DNA of 64,000 nucleotides, from assembly GCF_022832435.1 (NCBI RefSeq), contig NZ_JALHLF010000003.1, positions 1 through 64,000 on the forward strand, read 5' to 3'. Source of the stretch: Novosphingobium organovorum (GTDB lineage Bacteria > Pseudomonadota > Alphaproteobacteria > Sphingomonadales > Sphingomonadaceae). Position numbers and translations under genes: made by a program. The notes under the pieces are model-generated. The model was not told the origin of the DNA. It saw only the letters and a program-made list of their open reading frames with translations, and searched no databases. Numbering within the stretch: the stretch's first letter is position 1; the number at the start of each line of letters is the position of its first letter. Positions 18,504-36,526 of this stretch are shown here, one piece after another.

Positions 18504-18593
18504 TGGCGGAAGCGGTGGGATTCGAACCCACGAACGAGTTACCCCGTCGCTAGTTTTCAAGACTAGTGCCTTCAACCACTCGGCCACGCTTCC
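18504..18593 (-). tRNA. tRNA-Ser (anticodon UGA)
   Basis: On the minus strand this 90-base region starts GGAAGCG and ends CGCTTCC-G-CCA, so the acceptor stem is complete and the CCA is encoded. The anticodon arm CTAGT-CTTGAAA-ACTAG gives anticodon TGA, which reads UCA codons. The T arm has GTTCGAATC. A long variable arm (GCGACGGGGTAACTCGT) is typical of class II tRNA-Ser. Confidence 0.97.
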
Positions 18594-29981: not shown

Positions 29982-30773
29982 ATGACCCGTCCCGCGCCGC
30001 ACCAGCAACTCGACCGCCTGCTTGCGATCATGGCGCGACTGCGCGATCCGGTGAACGGATGCGAGTGGGACCGCGCGCAGGATTTCGCCTCGATCGCGCC
30101 CTACACGATCGAGGAAGCCTACGAAGTGGCCGATGCGATCGAGCGCGCGGACCTTTGCGCGCTGCGGGAGGAACTGGGTGATCTTCTGCTCCAGGTGGTG
30201 TTCCACGCTCGCATGGCCGAGGAAGGCGGCGTCTTCGCCTTTGCCGATGTCGCGCAGGCCATTGCCGACAAGCTCGAAGCGCGTCACCCGCACATCTTTG
30301 GCGAGGGCGACGAGGAGACCGGCCAGACCGAACGTTGGGAGAAGCTCAAGGCGAGCGAACGCGCGGCCAAGGGCGAGACCAGCGCGGTCGATGGCGTGGC
30401 GCGCGCCCTGCCCGCCCTGATGCGCGCCGAAAAGCTCCAGAAACGCGCCGCGCGCGTCGGCTTCGACTGGCCCGACCCGACCGGCGCCGAGGTCAAGGTG
30501 CACGAGGAAATCGCCGAACTGCGTGAGGCTGAAGCGGCAGAAAAGCTTGAGGAAGCGGGTGATCTGCTGTTCGCTGCGGTCAATCTGGTAAGGCTGAACG
30601 GCCTTGCCCCCGAAGACGCGCTGCGCGCGGCCAACGCCAAGTTCGAGCGCCGCTTCCGGGCGATGGAAGCGCTCGCCCACCAACGGGGCGAGACCTTTGC
30701 GGCGCTCGATCTTGATGCGCAGGAAGCGCTCTGGCAGGCGGTAAAAGCCTCAGAGCGCGCGAAAACGGCCTAG
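29982..30773 (+). CDS. mazG: Nucleoside triphosphate pyrophosphohydrolase MazG
   Basis: This 263-residue cytoplasmic enzyme hydrolyses nucleoside triphosphates to monophosphates and pyrophosphate, cleaning the nucleotide pool and modulating ppGpp in E. coli. Two tandem MazG domains are visible. The first has CEWDRAQDFASIAPYTIEE and LREELGDLLLQVVFHARMA (the ExxE and ExxD metal sites). The second has HEEIAELREAEAAEKLEEAGDLL quoted here by its core EEAGDLLFAAVNLVR. ATG 29982 has AAGGAG 4 bases upstream. Its 3' end overlaps convergent hflX by 24 bases. mazG next to hflX-hfq-ntr is the usual alphaproteobacterial order. Confidence 0.95.
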   Translation: MTRPAPHQQLDRLLAIMARLRDPVNGCEWDRAQDFASIAPYTIEEAYEVADAIERADLCALREELGDLLLQVVFHARMAEEGGVFAFADVAQAIADKLEARHPHIFGEGDEETGQTERWEKLKASERAAKGETSAVDGVARALPALMRAEKLQKRAARVGFDWPDPTGAEVKVHEEIAELREAEAAEKLEEAGDLLFAAVNLVRLNGLAPEDALRAANAKFERRFRAMEALAHQRGETFAALDLDAQEALWQAVKASERAKTA

Positions 30774-32105
30774 TTCGCGTTCGGCGAGGCGCACTTCGAT
30801 CCGCATCAGCGGACCGTTCTCGTCCTCGCCCGCAGCCTCTTCGCGAAGCACTTCGCCGCGTGCGTGAAGGAAGGCCAGACGCTGACCATCGGCTGCCGGG
30901 AGGACGAAGCTGTAGACCCTGGCATCGGCGTTGAGGCCATGGCCCACCACGTCGAGCAGGGTGTCACACCCTTCCCCGGTTACCGCCGAAAGCGGGATGA
31001 TCGTTTCCTCGCTGCGGTGCGCGATGACGTCGCGCAGGGCATCGGCCTGTTCTTCGCTCAGCAGGTCCCACTTGTTCCAGACCTCGACGATCGGGATTCC
31101 GGGCTCGGCACCCTCTTCCTCGTCGATGTCATCCCCTTCGCCGGGCAGCACGCCGAGATCGGCCAAGACGGCCAGGACCTGGCGCTTTTGCGCTTCGGTG
31201 TCCGGGTTGGCGATGTCGCGCACGTGAAGGATCACGTCCGCTGCGGTCACTTCCTCAAGCGTTGCGCGAAACGCCGCGACCAGCTGGGTGGGCAGATCGG
31301 AGATGAAACCCACCGTGTCGGACAGGATCGCCTTCTCGACGCCGGGCAGGCGCACCGCGCGCATGGTCGGGTCAAGGGTGGCGAACAGGAGGTCCTGTGC
31401 CATGACATCCGCGCCCGTCAGGTGATTGAAAAGCGTTGATTTTCCGGCGTTTGTATAGCCAACGAGGGCAACCACCGGCCACGGCGCCTTCTCGCGCCGG
31501 TCGCGGTGCAGGCCACGCGTACGGCGCACCTGTTCGAGCTCGCGGCGAATGCGGCTCATGCGGTCACGGATCATCCGGCGGTCCGCCTCGATCTGCGTCT
31601 CGCCCGGCCCGCCCAGGAACCCGAAACCGCCACGCTGGCGTTCGAGGTGAGTCCAGCTGCGCACCAGACGCCCGGCCTGGTAATCAAGGTGCGCCAGTTC
31701 GACCTGCAGGCGCCCTTCGGCGGTCGCCGCGCGTTCGCCGAAGATCTCAAGGATAAGCCCCGTGCGGTCGATCACCTTGCGCTTGAGCTTTTCCTCGAGG
31801 TTGCGCTGCTGGATCGCCGAAAGCGAACCGTCGACGACGACGAGTTCGGCCTCGTTCAGCGTGCAGGCGATCGAAATATTCTCGATCTGGCCTTCGCCGA
31901 ATAGCGTACCGGCGCGCGGCTCGCGGATGGGAATGATGAGAGCGTCGGCAATCTCGAGGCCAATCGCCAGGGCCAGGCCCTTGGCTTCCTCGAGACGCGC
32001 GTCGGGGTCCAGCTCGCCGCTGCCCCGGTTGCCACGCATGTGCGGATAGACGACGAGGGCACGCGCACCGCGCGTGACCTCGCCCTTCAGGTCTTCGTCG
32101 TTCAA
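30750..32105 (-). CDS. hflX: Ribosome-associated GTPase HflX
   Basis: This 451-residue GTPase binds the 50S subunit and rescues or splits stalled ribosomes under stress. The N-terminal HflX domain (about 1-190) ends in an arginine-rich coiled coil (RRELEQVRRTRG). The G domain has G1 ALVGYTNAGKSTLFNHLTG, the switch segment TLDPTMRAVRLPG, G3 DTVGFISDLP and G4 NKWD. A C-terminal domain follows. It lies 7 bases downstream of hfq in the same operon. Slight length over the E. coli protein comes from an acidic insert (EGDDIDEEEGAE). Confidence 0.96.
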   Translation of the reverse strand: MNDEDLKGEVTRGARALVVYPHMRGNRGSGELDPDARLEEAKGLALAIGLEIADALIIPIREPRAGTLFGEGQIENISIACTLNEAELVVVDGSLSAIQQRNLEEKLKRKVIDRTGLILEIFGERAATAEGRLQVELAHLDYQAGRLVRSWTHLERQRGGFGFLGGPGETQIEADRRMIRDRMSRIRRELEQVRRTRGLHRDRREKAPWPVVALVGYTNAGKSTLFNHLTGADVMAQDLLFATLDPTMRAVRLPGVEKAILSDTVGFISDLPTQLVAAFRATLEEVTAADVILHVRDIANPDTEAQKRQVLAVLADLGVLPGEGDDIDEEEGAEPGIPIVEVWNKWDLLSEEQADALRDVIAHRSEETIIPLSAVTGEGCDTLLDVVGHGLNADARVYSFVLPAADGQRLAFLHARGEVLREEAAGEDENGPLMRIEVRLAERELGRFRAL

Positions 32106-32112
32106 GACAGGA

Positions 32113-32712
32113 TCAGTCTTCGGCCTCTTCGTGGCTCTGCAGATCGACCGGGGTTACCGGCTGGATCGTCGAGACCGCGTGCTTGTAGGCCAACTGGACG
32201 TAACCTTCGCGTTCGAGCAGCATGCAGAACAGGTCGTAGGCGGCAACGCGCCCCTGGAGCATGACGCCGTTGATGAGGAACATGGTCACCTGCACACCCG
32301 CGCTGCGGATGCTGGAGAGGAACACGTCCTGGAGCGCGCGCGTCTTCTTCGAACCTTCACCGCTGCTGAACTGCGCGGCATCGACCGGGGTCGAGGGCAT
32401 GATCGTCGAGATCGCGTGCTTGTAGACCAGCTGCGACTGACCATCGCGACGCAGCAGGATCGAGAAGTTGTCGAACCACGTCACGATGCCCTGCAGCTTG
32501 ACGCCCTTGACCAGGAACATGGTCACCGGTGTCTTGTTCTTGCGCAGCAGGTTCAGAAACTGGTCCTGAAGATTTTGTCCCTTTCCGGCAGAGACAGCCG
32601 GTGTCGCACCCGCGGTGCTTGTCGTAGGTGCCGATGCCGGAGCGGGCTTGGGTTCCGCCGCCGCCGTCGCTGCACTCGCTCTCGGCCTCGCTGAAAGCGT
32701 CCGACCAGCCAT
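32113..32712 (-). CDS. hfq: RNA chaperone Hfq with two tandem Hfq domains
   Basis: This 199-residue protein is twice the normal Hfq size. A flexible Ala/Pro-rich N-terminus (1-44) is followed by domain 1 (about 46-106, [15 protein letters not shown] ... YKHAISTI) and domain 2 (about 125-185, [14 protein letters not shown] ... [10 protein letters not shown]), then an acidic tail. Both domains keep the proximal U-binding residues: Gln49, Phe83, Lys98 and His99 in domain 1, and Gln128, Phe162, Lys177 and His178 in domain 2. The basic rim patch (RRER in E. coli) is RKNK in domain 1 but RSAG in domain 2. Three chains could build a pseudo-hexameric ring. The start has AAGGAG 7 bases upstream. As far as I recall, double Hfq has been noted in sphingomonads. 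Confidence 0.96.
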
Positions 32713-32847
32713 TGGTATTCTCCTTCTTTTTGGCGGCCGCTAATGCGGTCCGCGATCTGGCATGCCCGACCCCCGGATCATGCCGTAAGCGAATCGAAAT
32801 TACCCGCTCGCTGCAGTGCAGTAAATCGCAAAGTTGTGTCAGGCGCG

Positions 32848-34245
32848 TTACGCGTCGCCCTCACCGCCGCCCTCGCCTTCCTTGCCACTGGACATTCCCA
32901 GCAGCTTGAGCTTGCGGTGAAGCGCCGAGCGTTCCATCCCGATGAACGAGGCGGTCTTCGAGATATTGCCGGAAAACCGCCGGATCTGGACGCGCAGATA
33001 TTCGCGCTCGAAGCTTTCGCGCGCTTCGCGCAGAGGCGCGCTCATCATCACCGTCACGCCGCCGTCACCGCCCGGACGGTTGCTGAAAATTTCCGGGGGC
33101 AACATGTCTTGCTCGATCCGGGCCAGTTTCTCGCGCGGGGCCATGATGACCGTTCGCTCGACCACGTTGCGCAGCTGACGCACATTGCCCGGCCATTCGT
33201 AGGCCTGCAGCGCGGTCATCGCCTCGGGCGTGACCTGCGGCGGGGCAACGCCCTGTTCGTTGGCATAGCGGGCAAAGAAATGGTCGACCAGCGCAGGGAT
33301 GTCGTCGCGCCGTTCGCGCAAGGCAGGGATCGCCACGGGCACGACGTTGAGACGGTAGAACAGGTCCTCGCGAAAGCGCCGCTCGGCAATTTCCTTTTCG
33401 AGGTCGCGCGAGGTCGAGGACACCACGCGCACATCGACCCGGATCTGGCGCGTGCCACCCACGCGCACGAAAGCCTGATCGGTCAGCACGCGCAGGATGC
33501 GCGCCTGGGTCGAGAGCGGCATGTCGGCCACTTCGTCGAGATAGAGCGTGCCGCCATCGGCGGTTTCGAGCAGCCCCGGACGCACCAGCGCACCGTCGCT
33601 TTCCTCGCCGAACAGCTCCTGTTCGAAGCGCTCGGGCGTGATCCGCGCCGAATTGACGCTGACGAAGGCCTTGTCGGCGCGTGGGCTCCAGGCGTGGAGC
33701 AGGCGCGCGGCCACTTCCTTGCCCGACCCTGCGGGACCGGTAATGAGCAGGCGGCTGCCGGTGTTGGCCACGCGCTTGAGCGTCGCGCGGACCTGATTGA
33801 TCGAACCGCTGGACCCGGTGAATTCCTCGCCGGTCGAATAGTCCTGCTTGAGCTGGGCGTTCTCGCGGCGCAGGCGCTCGGTTTCGGTCGCCTTGCCGAC
33901 GAGGTGGATCAGCCGCTCGGCCTCAAACGGCTTCTCGATGAAATCGACAGCGCCGCGCCCGATCGCGGCGACCGCGGTGTCGATGTTGCCGTGGCCCGAG
34001 AAGATGATGACCGGCAGTTCGGGCTCGCGCGCCTTGATCGCGTCGAGCACTTCGAGCCCGTCGAGCCGGCTGCCGTGGAGCCACACGTCGAGCAGCACCA
34101 GCGAGGGGCGCCGCTTGTCGATCTCCTCAAGCGCGGCGGTGCTGTCTCCGGCGGTGCGGCATTCGTAGCCTTCGTCGCTCAGCACGCCGGCGACCAGTTC
34201 ACGAATGTCGCGTTCGTCGTCGACGATCAGGATTTCGAGTGCCAT
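32848..34245 (-). CDS. ntrX: Nitrogen response regulator NtrX
   Basis: This 465-residue response regulator partners NtrY in control of nitrogen and redox genes. It has a receiver domain with phosphoacceptor Asp53 (LVLLDVWLHG), an AAA+ domain with Walker A ITGPAGSGKEVAARLLH and Walker B GGTLYLDEVADMP, and a C-terminal Fis-type HTH (GNISKTASFIGMERSALHRKL). The GAFTGA loop that contacts sigma-54 is missing: the region reads ELFGEESDGALVRPG. This is a known feature of alphaproteobacterial NtrX, so it probably acts without sigma-54 remodelling. It lies 64 bases after ntrY in the same operon. Confidence 0.94.
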   Translation of the reverse strand: MALEILIVDDERDIRELVAGVLSDEGYECRTAGDSTAALEEIDKRRPSLVLLDVWLHGSRLDGLEVLDAIKAREPELPVIIFSGHGNIDTAVAAIGRGAVDFIEKPFEAERLIHLVGKATETERLRRENAQLKQDYSTGEEFTGSSGSINQVRATLKRVANTGSRLLITGPAGSGKEVAARLLHAWSPRADKAFVSVNSARITPERFEQELFGEESDGALVRPGLLETADGGTLYLDEVADMPLSTQARILRVLTDQAFVRVGGTRQIRVDVRVVSSTSRDLEKEIAERRFREDLFYRLNVVPVAIPALRERRDDIPALVDHFFARYANEQGVAPPQVTPEAMTALQAYEWPGNVRQLRNVVERTVIMAPREKLARIEQDMLPPEIFSNRPGGDGGVTVMMSAPLREARESFEREYLRVQIRRFSGNISKTASFIGMERSALHRKLKLLGMSSGKEGEGGGEGDA

Positions 34246-34309
34246 GGCCGTGTCTTCTTCTGCTTGATCGATGGATTTGAACGAAGGGTGGTGACGATCG
34301 GGAGAGGTC

Positions 34310-36526
34310 TCATTCGGCCGCTTCCTGCTTTCTCTGGCGCGCCACAGGGTCGCTGGCGAAGCGCATGGTCACACAGGTCCCTCCCCCCTCCGCCGGGGAG
34401 AAGGTCATGTCGCCGCCATGCTCCTCGACGATCTTGTTCACGATCGCAAGGCCAAGGCCAGTGCCCTTTTCGCGGGTGGTGACGTAAGGTTCGATCAGCC
34501 GTTCGCGCGATTGGGTAAGGCCGATGCCGTTATCGACGATGCGCACCACGATCGTCTCGTCGTCGAGTGAGACGTCGACCGCAATGCTGCCGCGATAACC
34601 TTCGGGCGCGTCCTTGGCCTTGGCCTCGGTCGCTTCCACGGCGTTCTTGAGCACGTTGGTCATCGCCTGACCGAACTGATGACGGTCGCAGTCGATCATG
34701 CCGATGTCGGGCTCGGCGTGGAAACGGAACGAGACGTCGGGCCGCGCGACTTCCTGGAGAAACAGCGCCTGGCGGGTCAGTGCGACCGGGTCTTCGGTGC
34801 GGAACACCGGCTTGGGCAGCCGCGCGAAGGAGGAAAATTCGTCGACCATGCGCCGCAGATCGCCGACCTGGCGGATGATCGTCGCGGTCAGGTCCTCGAA
34901 CAGCTCGGGATTGTCGGTGATCTGCTTGCGGTAGCGCCGGCTCAGGCGTTCGGTGGCGAGCTGGATCGGGGTCAGCGGGTTCTTGATCTCGTGCGCGATG
35001 CGCCGCGCGACGTCCGACCAGGCAGCGGTGCGCTGGTCGAGCAACTGGCGGGTGATGTCCTCGAAGGTAATGACATAGCCGGTCGCATCGCGGCTCGTCT
35101 TGACCGCAAGGGTAAGGAGTTCGCCGCCCCGGCTGAACTGGACGATGCCGTTCTGGTCGCCCTTTTCGATGAGCGCGCCGATCGCGGGGGCAAGATCGCT
35201 GATCGGCATACCTTCGGGCACGGCGGTCTGGGCGGTGAGCTTGAGCGCGGAACTGTTCATCAGCAGGATCGCGCCCGTCGCATCGAGCGAGATGATCCCC
35301 GAGGTGACCGATTCGAGCACCGCCTCGATGAACAGGCGCCGCTCGTGCAGCTGGAGGTTGGCGCCGAGCAGCGCCTGGGTCTGCTTGTCGATCTGCGCGG
35401 TCATGCGGTTGAAGGCGCGGTTGAGCAGGCCGATCTCGTCGGTCCCGGTGCGCCCTTCAAGCTGGAGCGCGTAGTTGCCCGCCCCCACCCGGCGCGCCGC
35501 TTCGACGAGTTCGTAGAGCGGCTGCACCTGCCGGTCGGCAAAGCGCAGCGCGAACCACACCGACAGGCCCACCAGCACCAGCGCGACGATGAACAGCGCG
35601 ACGTTGAAGCGCAGCTGCGTCACCCGCGCCCGGCTCGTCTGGAATTCGTAGGCTTGCACGATGCTCTCGGCGCGCTGGCCCTGACTGAGCGAAAGCAGTT
35701 CGGAACTGCGCGCCACGAGCAGATAGACGCCCGCGTTCATCTCGATCGGTGCGGCCGCTACGATGCGGTCCTTCTTCGCCTCCACCGCATAGGGCTGCCC
35801 CTTGGCGAGGTGGTCGAGCATGTCCTTGCTGAGCCGATTATTTTCGGATTCGTTGTCGGGGTCTGCGATGATCGGGGTGCGCTGCTCGCCGCTCGCATCG
35901 ATCTGGATGATCGCGGCGAAGGACAGGCTGCGGCGCAGCACCTCGGACGCCAGGAAGCGCTGGAAACGCGGGCTGACGACCGGCGACTTTTCCATTTCCT
36001 TACGCGCATCGATCGCCGCAGCGACCGACTGGTAGCCAACGTCGAGCACCGTCTGTTCGTAATAGCCGCGCGCCAGCTTGTTCGCGTTTTCGAGCAGCCC
36101 GCGCGAATTTTCCGAAAACCAGAACTCGACACCCGACTGGAACAGCCAGGACGCAAAAATCACCACCAGGAGCGTGGGAATGGCCGAAATCAGCGAGAAG
36201 ATGAACACCAGGCGCACGTGCATCTGGCCCGTGCCGCCAATGCTCTGCGCGGCGCGTTGCAGGGCGATGTAGCGCCCCAGCAGGACCACCAGCGCCATGG
36301 CCGGAACCAGCATCCCCACCAGCAGCGTTGCCGTGAGGTTGGAGGGCAGCGGCTTGGTCGAATTGGTTCCGCCGTTGAGCGCAATCCAGGTGATCGTGCT
36401 CATGACCACGAAGGCGACGACGCAGACCGCCGCGATAACGGCAAAAAAATTGGCGCGGTGGGCGGCGATCTGGAAGCGCCGCCACCACCGTGGCCAATTG
36501 CGTCGAAGTACGGGCGAGGCAGTCAT
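34310..36526 (-). CDS. ntrY: Nitrogen sensor histidine kinase NtrY
   Basis: This 738-residue inner-membrane kinase phosphorylates NtrX. The N-terminus has several membrane segments (about residues 25-120) and a further one near 300 (ALFIVALVLVGLSVWFAL) around a periplasmic sensor region, followed by a HAMP domain (RFADRQVQPLYELVEAARR), a PAS domain and a HisKA domain with [19 protein letters not shown]. The HATPase has MTNVLKNAVEATEA and TREKGTGLGLAIV. Family length is about 730-770, so it appears complete. ntrC ends 101 bases upstream, with a modest CAGACG/CGTCTG inverted repeat in the gap. Confidence 0.94.
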   Translation of the reverse strand: MTASPVLRRNWPRWWRRFQIAAHRANFFAVIAAVCVVAFVVMSTITWIALNGGTNSTKPLPSNLTATLLVGMLVPAMALVVLLGRYIALQRAAQSIGGTGQMHVRLVFIFSLISAIPTLLVVIFASWLFQSGVEFWFSENSRGLLENANKLARGYYEQTVLDVGYQSVAAAIDARKEMEKSPVVSPRFQRFLASEVLRRSLSFAAIIQIDASGEQRTPIIADPDNESENNRLSKDMLDHLAKGQPYAVEAKKDRIVAAAPIEMNAGVYLLVARSSELLSLSQGQRAESIVQAYEFQTSRARVTQLRFNVALFIVALVLVGLSVWFALRFADRQVQPLYELVEAARRVGAGNYALQLEGRTGTDEIGLLNRAFNRMTAQIDKQTQALLGANLQLHERRLFIEAVLESVTSGIISLDATGAILLMNSSALKLTAQTAVPEGMPISDLAPAIGALIEKGDQNGIVQFSRGGELLTLAVKTSRDATGYVITFEDITRQLLDQRTAAWSDVARRIAHEIKNPLTPIQLATERLSRRYRKQITDNPELFEDLTATIIRQVGDLRRMVDEFSSFARLPKPVFRTEDPVALTRQALFLQEVARPDVSFRFHAEPDIGMIDCDRHQFGQAMTNVLKNAVEATEAKAKDAPEGYRGSIAVDVSLDDETIVVRIVDNGIGLTQSRERLIEPYVTTREKGTGLGLAIVNKIVEEHGGDMTFSPAEGGGTCVTMRFASDPVARQRKQEAAE

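Follow-up and report, generated by a model that had tools for sequence, protein, structure and literature searches.

The window, by which we mean the whole 64,000-nucleotide stretch of Novosphingobium organovorum DNA analysed here, carries a single hfq gene whose product joins two asymmetric Sm/Hfq domains in one chain. Read from the alignments, the fixed asymmetry is on the distal face, K28/K31 in domain 1 (D1) against N28/M31 in domain 2 (D2), and is sharper than the difference between the two rims. On balance we lean, though only slightly, towards an alternating ring of three chains, in which the linker between the domains would replace the D1 tail and the D2 tail would gate the rim of the next D1; the arguments come from a predicted structure, from sequence comparison and from analogy. 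The data show two domains, a single origin, conserved asymmetries, one free tail per chain and, in a predicted model, confident packing of the two domains; that three chains close the ring, that the domains alternate in it, which course linker and tail take and how annealing is affected are what we infer.

The gene lies at 32113-32712 on the minus strand and specifies a tandem two-domain RNA chaperone of 199 residues, identified as an open reading frame with two Pfam Hfq matches and a match to a tandem NCBIfam model. Residues of both domains are numbered as in E. coli Hfq. The Pfam model PF17209 matches the protein in two stretches with 185.3 bits in all (gathering score 27), and both modelled halves have the Sm fold, with an N-terminal helix and five strands. 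An earlier note on this DNA, which had read two full Sm/Hfq domains in one chain, was therefore right. About 45 residues, rich in Ala and Pro, extend the N-terminus ahead of D1 (32383-32571, minus strand; basic rim RKNK, K28, K31, N41 and R47). A 21-residue linker with a net charge of +1 (32332-32394, minus strand), running from P64 of D1 to Q8 of D2, stands in place of a D1 C-terminal tail. It leads into D2 (32146-32334, minus strand; rim RSAG, N28, M31, L41 and E47), both domain stretches being those of the Pfam matches. The chain ends in an acidic tail of 14 residues (32116-32157, minus strand), its sole free C-terminal tail.

The next gene downstream is hflX (30750-32105, minus strand; TIGR03156, 431 bits) and the next upstream is ntrX (32848-34245, minus strand; NF051870, 741 bits). 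Among 195 loci, an HflX match was found inside the fetched stretch in 193, duplicate loci counted, and an NtrX match in 172. Only two Hfq matches were obtained in the assembly at E ≤ 0.001, both inside the 32113-32712 open reading frame, which makes hfq single. A scan of positions 30600-34400 gave two terminator-like sites, where 3.1 were expected, and no promoter-like site. At gathering scores Rfam matched nothing near hfq within the 64-kb window; its only match in the window was a tRNA gene at 18507-18593 (minus strand).

The protein belongs to an already known tandem Hfq family. It scores 298.4 bits against the curated tandem model NF010691 (PRK14091; cut-off 270), residues 36-199 aligning to positions 11-175 of the 176 in the profile, and the closest named relative found, at 99%, is Novosphingobium profundi. 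Two Sm-like domains were reported in 2010 for ZMO0347 of Zymomonas mobilis and for six other Sphingomonadales species (PMC2877685, in excerpt), which together with the curated model confirms the earlier suspicion that the architecture might already be noted in sphingomonads. In the accessible part of the same paper, Yang et al. called for a test of whether a ring is formed from only three proteins. The accessible parts of further Zymomonas papers yielded no statement on the tandem architecture, and a Novosphingobium fitness paper names Hfq in its reference list only. Searches limited to open-licence PMC papers gave no description of the D1/D2 asymmetry. The action of the sRNA SuhB on thnR mRNA in Sphingopyxis granuli depends on Hfq (PMC6563040, in excerpt). 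A record named 'Actinobacteria bacterium 21-64-8' contains a tandem hfq 90% identical to that of the window, and looks like a misassigned Novosphingobium bin.

The distribution of the tandem form was surveyed in 296 genomes drawn evenly from the order, 213 of them from the window's family (GTDB family f1 in the survey, whose named members place it as Sphingomonadaceae). Two Hfq matches were present in 202 of the 213 and one in the other 11, whereas among the 83 genomes of other families 76 had one match, six had none and one had two on separate contigs. In a genome of another family, locus L134 (G001:C82:5514-5630) is a second, partial Hfq fragment, a 51-residue frame on a separate contig, and is possibly contamination. 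A survey of the class covered 289 evenly drawn genomes, of which 237 gave a match. Both halves were matched in all four genomes of the window's family; the other 233 matching genomes had best E-values of 2.7e-41 or weaker and, among the matches listed, mainly the first half was aligned. No tandem Hfq outside the family was scored in this 289-genome sample, from which a strongly diverged tandem could escape.

For residue comparisons we read 163 tandem records, made up of 80 named loci, 82 further genomes and the window itself, which are no count of independent genomes, some sequences being present in both collections, and 28 single-domain Hfqs from the window's family and other families of the order. 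The duplicates L001, L002 and L131 and the fragment L134 were excluded before counting. In a tree of HflX/NtrX fragments (114 sequences, 95 with NtrX), a single clade (support 0.866) takes in all 86 tandems and no single-domain sequence. Eleven single-domain members of the family lie outside the tandem clade, and L091 adjoins L005 of another family. In a tree of the separate domains, made without nine divergent loci of genus g13 that are described below, the D2 sequences form one clade (support 0.993), and the D1 sequences also group together, without support. As all tandems form one clade with no singles inside, one duplication is indicated and no reversal is seen. A single in-gene duplication within the Sphingomonadaceae explains the tandem lineage as these trees depict it.

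The two domains differ more strongly at sites that the earlier note did not name. K28 and K31 in D1 are found together with N28 and M31 in D2 in 153 of the 163 tandems, and all 28 single-domain Hfqs have N28 with K31. Thus Lys28 of D1 (32506-32508, minus strand) is Asn in D2 and in the single-domain relatives, and Met31 of D2 (32260-32262, minus strand) is Lys in D1 and in the same relatives. In the 141 tandems outside g13, position 38 is W in every D1 and A in 116 D2 domains, position 63 is M in 139 D1 domains and Q in every D2, and D2 has L41 in 133, the window's D1 having Asn41. The proximal pocket had been described as intact in both domains. Q8, F42, K56 and H57 are indeed present in D1 and D2, but position 41, a pocket site for Gln or Asn, had been overlooked: the window's D1 has Asn there, and D2 keeps the other four residues with Leu at 41. 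In E. coli Hfq, Q41 probably hydrogen-bonds uridine, and a figure legend points to the Q41 main chain (PMC4337610, in excerpt).

Mean entropy over the compared distal positions is 0.01 bits in D1 and in D2 alike, and the distal and proximal positions compared are together almost invariant in D2, in new fixed states. Uncorrected pN/pS, calculated from 53 sequences, is 0.14 for D2 and 0.09 for D1; by these measures D2 is under purifying selection. The low pN/pS and the near-invariant distal sites, set against a variable rim, point to a constrained D2 whose rim is relaxed and whose RNA faces have new fixed residues. Two neighbouring subunits form the purine site of Pseudomonas Hfq (PMC6422490, in excerpt), and by analogy each such site in an alternating ring would combine both domain types.

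The rim tetrads at positions 16-19 are RKNK in D1 (32533-32544, minus strand) and RSAG in D2 (32296-32307, minus strand), as the earlier note had stated. Alignment of both domains across relatives had been set beforehand as a check on the rim asymmetry, and the asymmetry is kept. The net charge of positions 16-19 and 47 is higher in D1 than in D2 in 160 of the 163 tandems, equal in two and smaller in one; this asymmetry is not chance. Its direction is thus conserved, but the rim is not the most constrained difference between the domains, the mean rim entropy being 1.89 bits in D2 against 0.62 bits in D1.

In the 141 tandems outside g13, R16 and R47 of D1 are invariant and positions 17 and 19 are K or R throughout. 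In D2 of the same tandems one of D, E, K, N and R usually stands at position 17 and E or G at position 19, while 104 have E and 27 have Q at position 47. R16 is kept in D2 of 104 of the 141, which counts against the mechanism proposed below, and many Sphingomonas-type relatives keep both R16 and a basic residue 17, often K17, in this domain. The window's D2 still has R16 and R48, so that its rim is weakened and not absent. Rim charge changes gradually across the family, from +5 to -3 (a sum that includes position 48), and among the aligned tandems the rim asymmetry is graded. Positions 17 and 19 of the D2 rim are the most variable sites compared (2.7 and 2.5 bits), and the D2 rim positions appear to vary as under relaxed constraint. 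In E. coli Hfq, R16A nearly abolishes chimera counts and K31A lowers them almost four-fold, loss of R16 hitting pairing hardest of the four mutants compared (PMC12262471, a preprint, in excerpt).

In the mechanism towards which we lean, three chains would close a six-domain ring with D1 and D2 alternating. D1 would be the RNA-active rim subunit, with R16, K17, K19 and R47, and would present a lysine-rich distal face (K28, K31). D2 would keep most U-pocket and A-site residues, lose the rim lysines, have E in place of R47, and carry M31 and L41. In crystals of Caulobacter Hfq each rim, at R18, K19 and K21, is contacted by the acidic tip of a neighbouring protomer (PMC6561178, in excerpt). The linker would take this tail path over the neighbouring D2 rim and, we propose, the D2 rim would then no longer need a basic patch. 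The acidic D2 tail would reach the basic rim of the next D1 and gate it, giving one tail per working rim. A linker on the D2 rim and a tail on the D1 rim would fit where the basic patch persists. Such a ring could, as the earlier note suggested, offer three annealing sites instead of six. The tails of the single-domain Hfqs are acidic in all 28 cases (net -1 to -8), and the free D2 tail has at least three acidic residues in 153 of the 163 tandems, nine of the ten exceptions being the divergent g13 loci. For the linker, the median net charge is 0 and the length is 21-23 residues in 145 of the 163 tandems.

Charge covariation does not support tail gating in a three-chain ring. Independent contrasts were calculated for the 162 of 163 tandems on the tree, with rim sums that include position 48, as in the raw correlations. 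No correlation was found between linker charge and D2 rim charge (r -0.08, p 0.31), or between tail charge and D1 rim charge (r 0.007, p 0.93). A nominal correlation of linker with D1 rim charge (r -0.16, p 0.04; sign test 20 to 20; r -0.19, p 0.02 without the nine g13 loci) is not what the tail and linker reading predicts. The charges of the D1 and D2 rims were also nominally correlated (r 0.21, p 0.009; sign test null; r 0.15, p 0.06 without the nine g13 loci). We take neither nominal signal as evidence, but they lower our trust in the mechanism slightly. Two candidate couplings were rejected: a raw rank correlation of -0.32 between linker and D2 rim charge and a raw correlation of +0.42 between tail and D2 rim charge both vanished under independent contrasts.

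These results bear on an explanation in which the three-chain ring alternates in the same way and the rim asymmetry is neutral drift, one rim per pair being enough, with neither gating by the tail nor any special annealing. Drift is consistent with the lack of covariation of linker with D2 rim and of tail with D1 rim, with the gradual shift of rim charge and with the high variability of D2 positions 17 and 19. It accounts less well for D2 position 47, which is non-random, with E in 88 of the 88 members of one clade, and for the same direction of asymmetry in 160 tandems. The distal and pocket changes are fixed, and drift alone does not give fixation. We therefore regard drift as an unlikely explanation, but one with a real claim.

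Structures were predicted with AlphaFold2 as single chains. The core model (A1), made from 37 sequences (36 of the 80 named loci and the window), has a pLDDT of 88.5 and a pTM of 0.83. The full-length model has a pTM of 0.68, three of its five models having mean pLDDT of 38-45, and its N-terminal extension is of low confidence. Two freely oriented domains would give a pTM of about 0.4, by a hand estimate from the definition of pTM. A value of 0.83 is too high for free orientation, and hence defined packing of D1 and D2 is predicted; with its domains so confidently packed, the chain could serve as the repeating unit of a ring of three. In a fold search against solved Hfq chains, Z scores reached 10.1 for D1 and 9.1 for D2, and a stretch of the model that reaches into the linker, residues 8-80, superposes on residues 6-76 of Caulobacter Hfq at 0.9 Å. 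No two-domain chain was among the best 50 matches listed in the fold searches, and no tandem Hfq was found among solved structures, where 35 distinct Hfq sequences were matched, the longest of 114 residues.

The predicted packing argues against an arrangement of six chains and twelve domains, in which each domain would form its own homohexamer in stacked or linked rings. D1 and D2 are both complete Hfq folds, a 21-residue linker would allow such rings, and a head-to-tail double ring is seen in Aquifex Hfq crystals (PMC5379935, in excerpt). However, one ring would then have six K28+K31 pairs and its partner would have none, which would be an odd outcome of duplication, and we consider this arrangement quite improbable. 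Cutting of the chain in the linker, to give two separate Hfq-like subunits that assemble freely, is most improbable of all: model confidence between the domains is lowest in the linker (block means of 61 and 68 in the core and full-length models), but linker length is tightly kept and the tandem clade contains no single-domain sequence.

Nine small-genome g13 loci (L124-L130, L132 and L133) have a strongly diverged tandem Hfq. In these nine the tail is lost, 1-5 residues remaining, and the D1 rim has decayed, position 19 being basic in three and position 47 in five. D1 also has W38G and, in all nine, K31R, and H57Q is present in four. These lineages may have an Hfq whose RNA binding is being lost or altered. 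Loss of the tail together with decay of the D1 rim was counted in favour of tail gating, as one lineage only, in which many other sites have decayed too.

The disordered Ala/Pro-rich extension of the window protein includes the motif RTLSARPR at residues 4-11 (32680-32703, minus strand). Matches to the pattern (R/K)TL(S/T)(A/P)RP, in 76 of the 163 tandems, are confined to one clade with 88 members (support 0.54), and by eye 11 of the other 12 members of that clade have a near variant. In the window and in loci L011-L062 the motif sits on a flexible spacer of variable length; one Arg codon of the window motif is AGG. Model A2 was made from 26 of the 47 named loci with a motif start found and the window, and the invariant L6 and R9 partly reflect that choice. 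A DNA pattern search of both strands gave three matches, one of them in hfq, where the control gave five; with matches below the control count, there is no sign of other proteins sharing the motif. Docking of the motif onto the ring is not supported, since the full-length model leaves the motif disordered and at low confidence. Gain of the motif and of D2 rim acidity on one branch was also rejected, as the nearest nine outside tandems have E47 and a near-neutral D2 rim without the motif.

A broader reading, which we put forward tentatively and would not yet rely on, is that Sphingomonadaceae with a tandem Hfq have a naturally three-fold Hfq. Covalent joining would have allowed a division of labour: D1 would provide the annealing rim and a cationic distal site, D2 would be a rim-weak spacer with a gating acidic tail, a modified pocket (L41) and a modified distal site (M31), and the RTLSARP motif on its flexible tether in the Novosphingobium/Erythrobacter clade would dock a partner. 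In most work on Hfq the six subunits of the ring are identical, and any mutation then alters every site at once. If a natural ring has two kinds of subunit on each chain, one rim, distal site or pocket per pair could be changed at a time, and the number of rim patches and acidic tails required for annealing could be probed. For this purpose the fixed split of K28/K31 against N28/M31 is a sharper handle than the rim.

Among known systems, the tandem Hfq ZMO0347 of Z. mobilis has the same two-domain architecture as the window protein (PMC2877685, in excerpt). Asymmetry of the halves is undescribed in the accessible text of that paper, which also has an alignment in Additional file 1. E. coli Hfq and the window's domains have in common the Sm fold, Q8, F42, K56 and H57, the rim positions 16-19 and 47, and an ARN-binding distal face. 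All six subunits of the E. coli ring have the RRER rim, N28, K31 and Q41. The best match to the window protein among solved structures is Caulobacter crescentus Hfq (PDB 6gwk, 1.5e-32), which resembles the window's D1 in the type of residue at the rim, in the pocket and on the distal face, and has a short acidic tail, DADD. Caulobacter Hfq has one domain per chain and forms a hexamer of identical chains with six rims and six tails, whereas the window's chain has two domains.
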